Source: Leucobacter sp. UCMA 4100 (lineage in GTDB: Bacteria; Actinomycetota; Actinomycetes; Actinomycetales; Microbacteriaceae). Taken from it: a DNA stretch of 64,000 bases. The position numbers and the translations under genes were made by a program. Position 1 is the first letter of the stretch. Each line of letters begins with the position of its first letter. This document shows, piece by piece, positions 25,640 through 57,331 of this stretch. Location of the stretch: positions 1,348,514 through 1,412,513 of the forward strand of contig NZ_JAFEUS010000002.1 of the NCBI RefSeq assembly GCF_027853335.1, in the 5' to 3' direction. The notes below the pieces were generated by a model that made no database searches, was not told the DNA's origin, and saw only the letters and a list, made by a program, of their open reading frames with translations.

Positions 25640-27016
25640 CTAGATGCCGCTCGGCATATCCTGAAAGCGCGAGAAGTGGCCCTGGAAGGCGACCGTGACG
25701 GTACCCGTGGGGCCGTTACGCTGCTTCGCGAGAATAAAGTCTGCCTCGCCAGCACGCGGGTGATCTTTCTCGTGAACCGCCTCACGGTGCAGCAAGATCA
25801 CCATATCGGCGTCCTGCTCCAGTGAGCCCGACTCACGCAGGTCACTGATCGCGGGAAGCTTATCAGCACGCTGCTCAGAAGCACGGTTCAGCTGCGACAG
25901 GGCCACGACCGGCACATCGAGCTCTTTCGACAACAGCTTGAGCGCACGCGAGAACTCACTGACCTCTTGCTGACGGCTCTCAACCTTCTTACCGCTCGTG
26001 AGCAGCTGCAGGTAGTCAATGACAATCATGCGCAGGTTATCGGTCTGCTTCAGCCGGCGGCATTTCGCGCGGATCTCAGCGAGCGTCATATTGGCGCTGT
26101 CGTCGATGAACAGCGGCGCGTCGTGAATACGGCTCTGCGTCGCAGCGAGCTTCGTCCAGTCACGCGGCTCAAGGTTGCCCTTACGCAGCACCTGCATAGG
26201 AATCGAGGCCTCAGCGGCGAGCATACGCGTCGCGATCTCGGCGCGACCCATCTCGAGTGAGAAGAACACCGTCGCAGCGCCGTGACCCACCGATGCGGCC
26301 CTCGCCACGTCGAGCGCAAGCGTCGACTTACCCATCGCGGGACGAGCAGCAATGATGATCATCTGGCCGCCGCCAAAACCGTTCGTAAGCTCATCGAGCT
26401 CCTGGAACCCGGTAGGAACACCGGTCATACCGTCTTCGAGCGTGCCGGCGCGTTCAATCTCGGCCACGGCATCATCCATGGCAAGCGACAACGGCACGTA
26501 GTCTTCGCCAGCGCTACCACCGGCAACGTTGTACACCTCGGCCTGCGCGTTATTCAGCAGGTCGACGGCCTCGCCCTCCCCCGAGTAACCCATCTGGGCG
26601 ATGCGGGTGCCCGCGTCAACGAGCCTGCGCAAGAGCGCCTTGTCGCCGACGATCTCGGCGTAGTAGCCCGCGTTTGCCGCGGTGGGCACGACCGCGGTGA
26701 GCGAGTGCAGGTAGGCAACGCCACCGGCACGCTGCAGATTGCCGAGCTTGGTCAGCTGGTCTGAGACCGCGATCTCATCGGTTGGCTCGCCGTGCGCGTA
26801 GAGATCCATGATCGCGTCATAGATCACCTCGTGCTTTGGCACGTAAAAGTCAGCGCCGCGCAGCAAGCCGTACACGTCGGCAACAGCGTCTTTCGAGAGC
26901 ATCATGCCGCCGAGAACACTCTGCTCAGCGAGCAAATCGTGCGGCGGTGTGCGCTCAGCCCCCTGTTCGAAGGAGCCTTGCGACGGGTCTGTAGCGCTGA
27001 TGTGCGCGAGTGACAT
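25640..27016 (-). CDS. dnaB: Replicative DNA helicase
   Basis: DnaB, 458 residues, unwinds DNA at the fork. N-terminal primase-interacting domain (PHDLLAEQSVLGGMML), linker helix, then the RecA-like domain: Walker A ARPAMGKST, FFSLEMGR, Walker B MIVIDYLQLL, and the DnaB finger region QEVSEFSRALK plus SQLNRASEQR. No intein is present, in contrast to some actinobacterial DnaB. ATG at 27016 has GGAGG upstream. Its 431-bp upstream region contains several DnaA-box-like 9-mers, suggesting control by DnaA. Confidence 0.96.
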   Translation of the reverse strand: MSLAHISATDPSQGSFEQGAERTPPHDLLAEQSVLGGMMLSKDAVADVYGLLRGADFYVPKHEVIYDAIMDLYAHGEPTDEIAVSDQLTKLGNLQRAGGVAYLHSLTAVVPTAANAGYYAEIVGDKALLRRLVDAGTRIAQMGYSGEGEAVDLLNNAQAEVYNVAGGSAGEDYVPLSLAMDDAVAEIERAGTLEDGMTGVPTGFQELDELTNGFGGGQMIIIAARPAMGKSTLALDVARAASVGHGAATVFFSLEMGRAEIATRMLAAEASIPMQVLRKGNLEPRDWTKLAATQSRIHDAPLFIDDSANMTLAEIRAKCRRLKQTDNLRMIVIDYLQLLTSGKKVESRQQEVSEFSRALKLLSKELDVPVVALSQLNRASEQRADKLPAISDLRESGSLEQDADMVILLHREAVHEKDHPRAGEADFILAKQRNGPTGTVTVAFQGHFSRFQDMPSGI

Positions 27017-27447
27017 GGGGCCTCCGAACAGTGAATGCTTCGTGAACGACAATCACGAGTATTGCCGAAACTACTGACACAACCGTAGGCACTTTCAGGC
27101 GGTTGATCAACTCGCCGTTTTCTCACCTGTGGATAACTATGTGCATAAGGCACCAATACAGTGGGTACTTTATTCACACAAGCTGTTAGTAACTGTGTAT
27201 AAGTTTTTTGTTCAAAAAATCTTTGATGCCCTGACCTGGGATTTTGGTGTTCTTGTGCTGTGCACAACAAGAACCTTTAACCACAGGTTCAACCTTAAAC
27301 CGCTGACTTGACTGTGGAGAAAAGAGGGGGTAAGAGGTGCTTTACAGGCCTTTTTTGAGGGGGTTTTCCACGTCATTTTTCGTGACATAAACACCCTCGA
27401 TCCCACTCCCGCGTAGGGTAGAGAGGTAACGCAGAAGGGAACGTTCA
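27017..27447. promoter_or_regulatory. AT-rich dnaB upstream region with a cluster of DnaA-box-like sites
   Basis: A 431-bp gap between dnaB and the DUF1684 gene. One perfect DnaA box, TGTGGATAA at 27128-27136, and one-mismatch versions at 27140-27148, 27170-27178, 27194-27202, 27277-27285 and 27313-27321. The stretch is much more AT-rich than the coding DNA around it. A hairpin with GAGGG..GTTT and AAACACCCTC arms spans 27357-27398. It may serve DnaA-dependent regulation, DnaA titration, or replication start. Confidence 0.6.
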
Positions 27448-28314
27448 ATGTCATTCGATGAACATCTTCACGCCCGTTGGAGGGTGTGGCGCCACGCCCG
27501 ACACGCCGATCTGACACACCCGTACGGTTGGAGTGCGCCAATTGCTCAACACTGGCTTCCCGATGGCTCGACCGATATCACGCTCCCCGATCTCCCGGGC
27601 CGGTGGAGCGCACACCATGGCGAAGTGACGTACACCCCCGACCCAGCCGCGATCGCAGGCAACACCGCTATCGACGCCGCCACCGCCCCGCCGCTCACGG
27701 TGCAGGGCGCTCCAATCACCAGGCCCACCGTCATCGAGAACGGCCGATATCTCATGGGCGGGCATCCCGAGGCGCAACTCATCCTCTCCGGCGAACGAGA
27801 AGTCGAGACGATCGTTCGCCGAACGCCATCAGGCGGCAATATTTATGCCGTGCGCGTGCGCGATCCCAGATCGGCGGCAACGGCAGAGACGCTGCCCATC
27901 ACGAGCTACGACTACGACGCCGCCTGGCGCATCCCGGCCCACTTCGAGCCCCACGCGGCCACCGAGGTGGTGCGCGAAACCCTCGCAGAGGGCGTCATCG
28001 ATATCGTGCGAAGCATCGGCACCCTGAGCTTCACGCTCGGCGACGGTCTGGCGCCTCAACAGCTTGTCGTCTTTGGCACGCCCGGCCGCGCCTTCACGCA
28101 CTTTCGCGACGCGACCAGTGGAGCCGAGACCCACGGCAATGGCCGCATGATCGAGCTCGAGATCACCGATGTCACTGAGCCAGCCGAGATCATCGTCGAC
28201 TGGAACTACGCCTACAGCATGCCCTGCTCACTGACTCCTTACGTCTCGTGCCCCGTGCCCATCGCCGAGAACACCCTCGACGTGGCGGTCACGGCGGGTG
28301 AGCGGCTGCGGTAA
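27448..28314 (+). CDS. DUF1684 family protein
   Basis: A 288-residue cytoplasmic protein. The end of the family is well matched: IVDWNYAYSMPCSLTPYVSCPVP then ENTLDVAVTAGERLR, with the paired Cys residues (PCS, SCP) and the Asn-Tyr-Ala-Tyr core. The N-terminus has the Trp-rich WRVWRHARHADLTHPYGW pattern. The function of DUF1684 is not established. GAAGGGAA precedes the ATG. It converges on the DUF418 gene. Confidence 0.85.
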   Translation: MSFDEHLHARWRVWRHARHADLTHPYGWSAPIAQHWLPDGSTDITLPDLPGRWSAHHGEVTYTPDPAAIAGNTAIDAATAPPLTVQGAPITRPTVIENGRYLMGGHPEAQLILSGEREVETIVRRTPSGGNIYAVRVRDPRSAATAETLPITSYDYDAAWRIPAHFEPHAATEVVRETLAEGVIDIVRSIGTLSFTLGDGLAPQQLVVFGTPGRAFTHFRDATSGAETHGNGRMIELEITDVTEPAEIIVDWNYAYSMPCSLTPYVSCPVPIAENTLDVAVTAGERLR

Positions 28315-55035: not shown

Positions 55036-55404
55036 GATTTCTCCGTGGTTTCGGAACTGTCTCGGAACACCGGTTCGTGAGGTCCGAGGAAGAATTTGTG
55101 ACAACTAAGCGGAGCTATTGAGTCACACAAACACTTAACTTTACGCGTTTTTCTGTGATTCGTCAAAAAATGTTTTCAAGCTCGCGATTATCTCCCGTTC
55201 GCTGCAGTGCGCAGCGAACGGGCGGGGCGTGTCGTAAATTGCTTTCGCGACACGACATTTCCGCTTCTCCCCAGACACCTGTAAAGTTATCCACAGGTCG
55301 GATCGTTTCCGCCAAGGTTCCCGCTATTTCATTACTATTTTCTGTGTATAGCTTTGGGGATGAAGCTGTGAGACGGTGTGAATAGCTACTTATCTGGAGG
55401 TTAC
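55036..55404. promoter_or_regulatory. rpmH-dnaA divergent promoter region with DnaA box and cruciform
   Basis: A 369-bp gap. It contains a perfect DnaA box TTATCCACA (55287-55295) in front of dnaA, a 12-bp perfect inverted repeat (arms 55194-55205 and 55211-55222) and a smaller one (55228-55234 with 55248-55254). GGAGG at 55396-55400 is the dnaA ribosome site. Confidence 0.75.
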
Positions 55405-56964
55405 GTGAACGACGCCCAAGTGCGCGAGCTGTGGGGTGAAATCACTCTCTCAGTGATGAACGACCCAGAAATTTCGCCTTCGATGGCCGCGCAATTGGCG
55501 CTCGCTCTGCCTCGGGGCATGGGCGCGGGCATGCTCTACCTTGCAGTGCAGCACGAGTTCACACAGCGTCTTCTCGATAGCCAGCTTCGCCCCGTCATCA
55601 TGCAAGCCATCGCGCAGCACCCGAATGCCGGCTCGATTGATAACTTCGCCGTACTCGTCGACACCGACGTCAGTGAAGAGCTTGAGGCAGAGGCGCATGC
55701 CTACGAGCAACAGTCTTCTCGCGAGCAACAGCACGAAAATGTTCAAGCAGGGTCAACGGGTTCATCACGTACCGCGGCTCCATCATTAGATTCAGCCGAG
55801 TCGGCCAACCAAGAACGCGATTCAGATGCCCATGCTGAAGCCGGCTTCGTTCCTTCGGGCACGGCATCACATTCGGCAGCACCCTCACAGCGAAACTACG
55901 CTTCGACGCCAACAACGGCTCCAAAATCTGAAGAATCGTTCCACCTGAACGACCAATACCGCTTTGATTCATTCGTGATCGGGCAATCGAACAGTTTTGC
56001 TCACGCCGCTGCGGTTGCCGTCGCCGAGTCACCCGCAAAGTCGTACAACCCTTTGTTTATCTATGGCGATTCAGGTCTTGGCAAAACTCACCTCTTGCAC
56101 GCCATCGGCCACTACGCCATGGAGTTGTTTCATGGACTTCGCGTTCGTTACGTCAGTTCAGAAGACTTCACGAACGACTTCATTAACTCGATTGCCAATA
56201 ACCAGGGTCCACAATTCCAGCAGCGGTACCGCAGTGTCGATATTTTGCTCGTCGACGATATCCAGTTTTTGAAGGGCAAGGCCGAGACGCAAGAGGCGTT
56301 CTTCCACACCTTCAACAGCCTTGTTGGTCAGAACAAGCAAATCGTTATCACGAGTGATGTTTCACCCGCGCAGCTCAAGGGCTTCGAAGACCGTATGCTC
56401 TCACGCTTCAGTTCTGGTCTCACCACAGATATTCAGGTGCCTGACCTCGAGACGCGTATCGCGATTCTTCGCAAAAAATGCCAGCGCGAGAACATCATTG
56501 TTGACCCCGAGATTCTCGAACTCATCGCGTCGAAGCTCAACTCAAACATTCGTGAGCTTGAGGGAAGCCTCAACCGCGTTCGCGCATACGCGAGCCTCAA
56601 CGATCAGCCGATCGACCTTCACGTCGCGCAAACCGTTCTCAAAGACATCGTTTCGCTCGATGATAATGAAATCTTGCCGACCGACATCGTCGGGGTGGTC
56701 GCCAACTACTTCAATCTCAGCGTCGATGACCTCTACGGGCAGTCGCGCATCCAGGAAATTGCGTTTGCCCGGCAAATCGCGATGTACCTCTGCCGGGATC
56801 TGACGCCCCTTTCGCTTCCCAAGATTGGGCAGCTCTTCGGTGGGCGTGATCACAGCACCGTCATTTACGCGCATAAAAAAATTACGCAGCTCATCGCTGA
56901 ACGGCGCTCGGTCTACAACCAGGTGGCCGAATTGACCTCGAAATTGAAGCATAATTCGGCCTAA
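55405..56964 (+). CDS. dnaA: Chromosomal replication initiator DnaA
   Basis: Initiator ATPase, 519 residues. Domain I about 1-90, a Ser/Ala/Glu-rich disordered domain II (about 100-185), domain III with Walker A IYGDSGLGKTHLL, Walker B ILLVDDIQFL and the ISM/box VII region, and domain IV with the DnaA-box-binding GGRDHSTVIYAHKKI. GTG at 55405 is chosen because GGAGG lies 4 nt upstream. DnaA boxes lie on both sides of the gene, so it probably controls its own promoter. Confidence 0.97.
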   Translation: MNDAQVRELWGEITLSVMNDPEISPSMAAQLALALPRGMGAGMLYLAVQHEFTQRLLDSQLRPVIMQAIAQHPNAGSIDNFAVLVDTDVSEELEAEAHAYEQQSSREQQHENVQAGSTGSSRTAAPSLDSAESANQERDSDAHAEAGFVPSGTASHSAAPSQRNYASTPTTAPKSEESFHLNDQYRFDSFVIGQSNSFAHAAAVAVAESPAKSYNPLFIYGDSGLGKTHLLHAIGHYAMELFHGLRVRYVSSEDFTNDFINSIANNQGPQFQQRYRSVDILLVDDIQFLKGKAETQEAFFHTFNSLVGQNKQIVITSDVSPAQLKGFEDRMLSRFSSGLTTDIQVPDLETRIAILRKKCQRENIIVDPEILELIASKLNSNIRELEGSLNRVRAYASLNDQPIDLHVAQTVLKDIVSLDDNEILPTDIVGVVANYFNLSVDDLYGQSRIQEIAFARQIAMYLCRDLTPLSLPKIGQLFGGRDHSTVIYAHKKITQLIAERRSVYNQVAELTSKLKHNSA

Positions 56965-57331
56965 ATTTATCCACATCCACAGGAGGCTTGTGAATAACTC
57001 TTGATAAGTCATCCAATCTGTGGATAAGTTCTGGGCCGCTGTGGAGATCCTGTCATTCACAAGATCGGCATGATCAAGCCATTCCCAGCCCGTCCACCGC
57101 TTCTCCGCAAATGACAAAGATGTAGTTCCTTGTCCCAGAGCGGGCTGTCGGGAGTTATCCACAATATCCACAGGACTTATGACTATTACAGAATTACAAC
57201 TTATAGAGGCGAAACCCAATACCCAGGTGAAAACCGAAAATCGAGCGAGCTTCTGTGACACGCTTCGTAAGAGTTACAAAACTATGCAAAGATGTTGTTC
57301 GATAGTTTGTCATTCTGAGGAGGAGTAACGA
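56965..57331. other. Chromosome origin region (oriC), dnaA-dnaN spacer
   Basis: Perfect DnaA boxes at 56967-56975 (TTATCCACA), 57019-57027 (TGTGGATAA) and 57155-57163 (TTATCCACA); one-mismatch boxes at 56989-56997 (TGTGAATAA) and 57164-57172 (ATATCCACA). An AT-rich stretch (about 57172-57310) follows and could unwind. Position between dnaA and dnaN is the standard place in actinobacteria. The dnaN ribosome site AGGAGG is at 57317-57322. Confidence 0.85.

Follow-up and report, generated by a model that had tools for sequence, protein, structure and literature searches.

A class-wide array of DnaA boxes upstream of dnaB in Leucobacter sp. UCMA 4100 and its probable role in the control of the helicase gene

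The window analyzed in this study is a stretch of 64,000 nucleotides from Leucobacter sp. UCMA 4100 (contig NZ_JAFEUS010000002.1, positions 1,348,514 to 1,412,513). Compared by DnaB, the named genomes closest to it are those of Leucobacter. The gene for the replicative DNA helicase, dnaB, lies on its minus strand (25640..27016, ATG at 27016) and encodes a protein of 458 aa. It was identified from its Pfam domains (DnaB_C, E 1.1e-101; DnaB N-terminal domain, E 2.6e-31) and from its orthologues, which are 65-78% identical in the Micrococcales. A gene for a DUF1684 protein (27448..28314, plus strand) is divergent from dnaB and forms its upstream neighbour, whereas rplI holds this place in most Microbacteriaceae. 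The gap between the two genes is 431 bp long, with a GC content of 46% overall and 38% in its middle, compared with about 62% in the flanking genes. The AT-rich stretch at 27100..27300 (38-47% GC) contains DnaA boxes. The idea that the gap encodes a structured RNA or a leader element was rejected, as no Rfam match was obtained and folding of the array strand reached a z of only -1.46. Two side observations concern the dnaB gene of other genomes. In many other Actinomycetes the open frames that match dnaB are 800-1500 aa long and the match is interrupted at about residue 229 or 400, a pattern expected of inteins in DnaB. In addition, a MAG labelled Acidobacteria (JABBOB010000008.1) carries a dnaB that is 66% identical to that of the window, and because of this identity either the contig or its label is probably actinobacterial.

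Boxes were scored by counting mismatches against the reference DnaA box, TTATCCACA. The first-pass annotation had described one perfect and five one-mismatch boxes in about 200 bp of AT-rich DNA, and this description proved exact: the gap, at 46% GC, holds one perfect TTATCCACA and five boxes with a single mismatch in 194 bp. The perfect box is promoter-proximal and defines position 0 of the array (27128..27136, minus strand), 17 bp upstream of the predicted -35 hexamer. It is followed at -12 by TTATGCACA (27140..27148, minus strand), and a -12 box is also found in 26 of 81 anchored loci. The box at -42, TTATTCACA (27170..27178, plus strand), has the opposite orientation; its counterparts in the anchored loci are -42(-) in 7 of 81 and -44(+) in 32 of 81. 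Further upstream are TTATACACA at -66 (27194..27202, minus strand), where 22 of the 81 loci have a (+) box at -66/-67, and TTCTCCACA at -185 (27313..27321, minus strand), for which about half of the anchored loci have a (+) box between -185 and -191. The remaining one-mismatch box, TTAACCACA (27277..27285, plus strand), is without a clear counterpart in the family grid. A weaker box, TTGTGCACA, stands at -131 (27259..27267, minus strand), near the -134(+) box of 22 of the 81 loci, and a weak box-like sequence with two mismatches, TTTTCCACG (27364..27372, plus strand), may be due to chance. The grid of this genome (0, -12, -42 inverted, -66, -131 and -185) can be set beside the boxes shared by its relatives, which, counted from the proximal box, occur at -12, -44 (or -42 inverted), -55/-57, -66/-67, -134 and about -190.

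The boxes starting at 27128, 27140, 27170 and 27194 are all of the form TTATNCACA. Genome-wide pattern searches found only 25 exact copies of TTATNCACA in 2.84 Mb (2 contigs), four of them in the dnaB gap and four or five at dnaA/oriC. The gap is the densest DnaA-box stretch of the window and exceeds oriC in this respect. For comparison, the gene for the replication initiator and presumed ligand, dnaA (55378..56964, plus strand; Pfam Bac_DnaA, E 1.1e-69, and Bac_DnaA_C, E 4.4e-30), has a box upstream (55287..55295, plus strand), and the oriC boxes between dnaA and dnaN (56967..57172) are of the same type as those at dnaB. The distance to dnaA is about 28 kb (dnaA start at 55378), in agreement with the 30 kb first given. 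A box count no higher than expected from base composition had been set beforehand as the result that would speak against the cluster. Composition fails to explain it: dinucleotide-preserving shuffles of the gap contained on average 0.11 boxes (one mismatch or none) and never more than 3, and none of 20,000 shuffles reached the observed six.

The same gap was compared in relatives, as the first-pass annotation had proposed, and the boxes were conserved across the class. The sample comprised 110 loci: 80 species, almost all of them Micrococcales, contributed named dnaB loci, and genomes of the family contributed the other 30. In the 500 bp upstream of dnaB, TTNTNCACA occurred at 6.45/kb, versus 0.018/kb in the other 603 kb, and TTATNCACA occurred 116 times in these loci while permuted patterns of the same letters averaged less than 1; the loci are related, so these and the following counts are not independent events. 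Among 60 further genomes of Actinomycetes from about 30 families, 48 had at least one box within 700 bp upstream of dnaB, and TTNTCCACA was present 76 times, versus a permuted mean of 0.8. About a fifth of these 60 genomes had no TTNTNCACA upstream of dnaB. Boxes were sporadic in the other classes of the phylum (9 of 40 genomes, within the 1.4 kb taken). Judged by the box densities in the 110 loci and by 48 of 60 genomes against 9 of 40, the array is thus typical of the class and not of this genome alone.

The upstream neighbour of dnaB was rplI in 63 Microbacteriaceae loci and another gene in 20, including this genome, and the number of boxes per 500 bp was 3.1 with rplI and 4.3 without it. 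Since the array is kept beside rplI, DUF1684 or other neighbours, it belongs to dnaB, and the possibility that it is a property of the neighbouring gene was rejected on the same ground. Within the genus, a second genome showed no change in 63 box bases versus 26 changes in the 430-bp gap; however, the whole promoter-proximal 197 bp is nearly invariant in this pair, so that conservation of the boxes is inseparable from conservation of the promoter. As a separate observation, a strongly conserved CGGCGTTTCGC separates the -44 box from the -12 box in the dnaB arrays of Microbacteriaceae, at about -28 to -17 relative to the proximal box. It is absent from the array in the window; in the arrays that have it, it is possibly the site of a second dnaB regulator.

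The dnaB promoter was placed by comparison of relatives, and a strict sigma-70 scan of the gap found no promoter. The predicted -35 hexamer is TTGATC (27105..27110, minus strand), whose TTG is conserved and follows the last box at a distance of 7/8 or 17/18 bp, and the predicted -10 hexamer is TACGGT (27082..27087, minus strand), which fits TANNNT and stands 17 bp from the -35. The geometry was tested by seeking TTGNNN-17/18-TANNNT near every plus-oriented box in Microbacteriaceae without a preset distance. Promoter-like pairs downstream of a box numbered 52 at a distance of 7 bp, 7 at 8 bp and 8 at 17/18 bp, compared with 0.19 per offset in a rotation control. Echoes of this spacing at 19, 29 and 51 bp come from the boxes 12 and 44 bp further upstream. 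This genome and its congener both belong to the group with a spacing of 17-18 bp, as do three named Leucobacter loci. The step from 7/8 to 17/18 bp is about 10 bases, or one helical turn, so that helical phase is kept. The -10 was TANNGT in 76 of the 81 anchored relatives, with G at position 5, which is a conserved departure from TATAAT; such a conserved non-consensus -10 would be expected of an activated promoter. Across the anchored loci, between 40 and 277 bp separate the -10 from the start codon, and thus the array tracks the promoter and not the start codon. In two other families (f19 and f20) a similar promoter is preceded, at 4-5 bp, by an inverted TTATCCACA, which indicates that a box close to the -35 is shared beyond Microbacteriaceae, although its orientation differs.

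In our analysis the gap is therefore best read as the dnaB promoter region, with the boxes probably forming an upstream operator array for DnaA. The box-promoter geometry suggests that DnaA acts as a transcription factor of dnaB, most likely an activator, and DnaA very probably sets the amount of helicase through this array. DnaA would bind the high-affinity boxes cooperatively, and the proximal box, a set number of helical turns from a weak SigA-type promoter, would place DnaA on the face of RNA polymerase. DnaA at this box would be located at about -57 here and about -47 in most relatives, a usual position for an activator. By recruiting or stabilizing the polymerase, it would make dnaB transcription follow DnaA activity, so that the initiator would drive the supply of helicase. 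What we infer is that DnaA binds in this organism, where transcription starts, and that the regulation is positive, although it may become repressive when DnaA-ATP is high. DnaA-controlled expression of dnaB had been among the readings offered by the first-pass annotation, and it is now strongly supported by the class-wide conservation, the fixed promoter geometry and published mycobacterial data on binding and expression.

These data come from M. tuberculosis, where DnaA bound five regions strongly in vitro, one of them upstream of dnaB, and from M. smegmatis, where the homologues of the same five regions were bound in vivo (PMC7738170). The methods described there were IDAP-seq and ChIP-seq, and the DnaA variant I282T of M. 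tuberculosis bound the dnaB promoter less and uniquely under-expressed dnaB (PMC7738170). The mycobacterial site resembles the array described here in protein, target gene and class, and it binds strongly besides oriC; it differs in that binding of DnaA was shown there (PMC7738170), whereas it is predicted here. In Caulobacter crescentus, dnaB belongs to the DnaA regulon, with predicted upstream DnaA boxes, as found here, and DnaA-dependent expression (Hottes 2005, cited in PMC8203912), but this organism is an Alphaproteobacterium. Control of dnaB by DnaA has thus already been reported in two lineages, and the present array is a further case. We found no description of the class-wide extent, the box grid or the helical-phase spacing in the open-licence papers searched. 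A further likeness is E. coli nrdAB, a replication-supply gene with upstream DnaA boxes, of which the high-affinity ones activate. It differs in the gene, in having fewer boxes and in an ATP-DnaA-specific box, and the sign of its regulation depends on nucleotide state.

Another pair of boxes, TTATTCACA and TTATGCACA, was observed at C2:1418601-1418663 (starts 1418601 and 1418655; L111:6602-6664), flanked by a rhomboid gene and by the 3' end of a gene that we take to be crgA, presumably the same gene as Rv0011c. The pair lies about 6 kb past the end of the window. In M. tuberculosis the corresponding neighbourhood contains the DnaA-bound Rv0010c-Rv0011c region (PMC7738170), and the pair is likely a second conserved member of a DnaA network. 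The genome has only three copies of a palindrome, TTACACNNNTGTAATT (C2:1418633, 1552571 and 1556116; L111 at about 6634, L112 at about 6572 and 10117), and all three adjoin paired DnaA boxes. The palindrome was found in 32 of 60 family genomes, in some cases beside DnaA boxes (crgA end) and in others in promoter-like settings without boxes, and such pairs of palindrome and boxes recur at several family loci. The distance from the crgA palindrome to the other two is about 134 kb here (G000:C2) versus about 13 kb in the congener (G051:C17), which suggests that this genome has undergone a large insertion or rearrangement.

Several other explanations were weighed. First, DnaA may repress dnaB, with oligomers spreading from the array over the promoter, blocking RNA polymerase and limiting helicase when the initiator is abundant. 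DnaA does repress dnaA and rpoH and, when DnaA-ATP is high, also nrdAB (PMC8203912), and the boxes here come within 17 bp of the -35. However, no box overlaps the predicted -35 or -10, the fixed spacing with its one-turn step and the conserved weak -10 fit activation better, and in M. tuberculosis reduced binding accompanies reduced expression of dnaB (PMC7738170), so that repression is unlikely, though the strongest of these alternatives. Box position alone does not fix the sign, because DnaA both activates and represses E. coli nrdAB (PMC8203912). Repression, or a switch governed by the nucleotide state of DnaA like that at nrdAB, may act here in place of activation.

Secondly, the array may be a DnaA sink, as the first-pass annotation had also suggested, or a reset site. 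Its main effect would then be to titrate or remodel DnaA shortly after initiation, and dnaB would merely happen to host it. The box number equals that of oriC, and the array, at 28 kb from oriC, is for that reason duplicated early. Clusters of such a role are known elsewhere: DnaA boxes are clustered outside oriC, as they are here, at datA and DARS of E. coli, in Bacillus subtilis and in the D78-type clusters of Streptomyces. These clusters are defined by their effects on initiation timing and not by promoter geometry, and a sink need not hold a fixed distance to a promoter nor stay with dnaB as its neighbours change. Its being the main function is therefore improbable, while a sink as a secondary effect alongside regulation of dnaB is possible.

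Thirdly, a secondary or relic replication origin, also raised by the first-pass annotation, would account for clustered boxes in AT-rich DNA, but it is very improbable. The cumulative GC skew of the window does not reach a minimum at dnaB; it declines steadily across this gene towards dnaA. The boxes are arranged with respect to a promoter and are kept by GC-rich relatives; the gap here is AT-rich, AT at the matching positions in Microbacteriaceae is about 55%, and many members of the class are GC-rich. Lastly, a chance cluster arising from the AT-rich composition of the gap is already refuted by the shuffles and by the class-wide conservation, and its probability is negligible.

The reading preferred here thus remains that of an operator array through which DnaA probably activates dnaB. 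A broader proposal, which we regard as speculative and rather unlikely in full, is that the array is a class-wide switch from initiator to helicase, combining activation of dnaB in proportion to active DnaA with an origin-proximal reservoir of DnaA. If this were true, duplication of the locus just after initiation would reset DnaA, and Actinobacteria would have an equivalent of datA/DARS that forms part of a promoter. How bacteria match the supply of helicase to initiator activity has been little studied. The array at its fixed distance, its class-wide relatives and the mycobacterial binding together make the link from initiator to helicase testable by mutation of the boxes.
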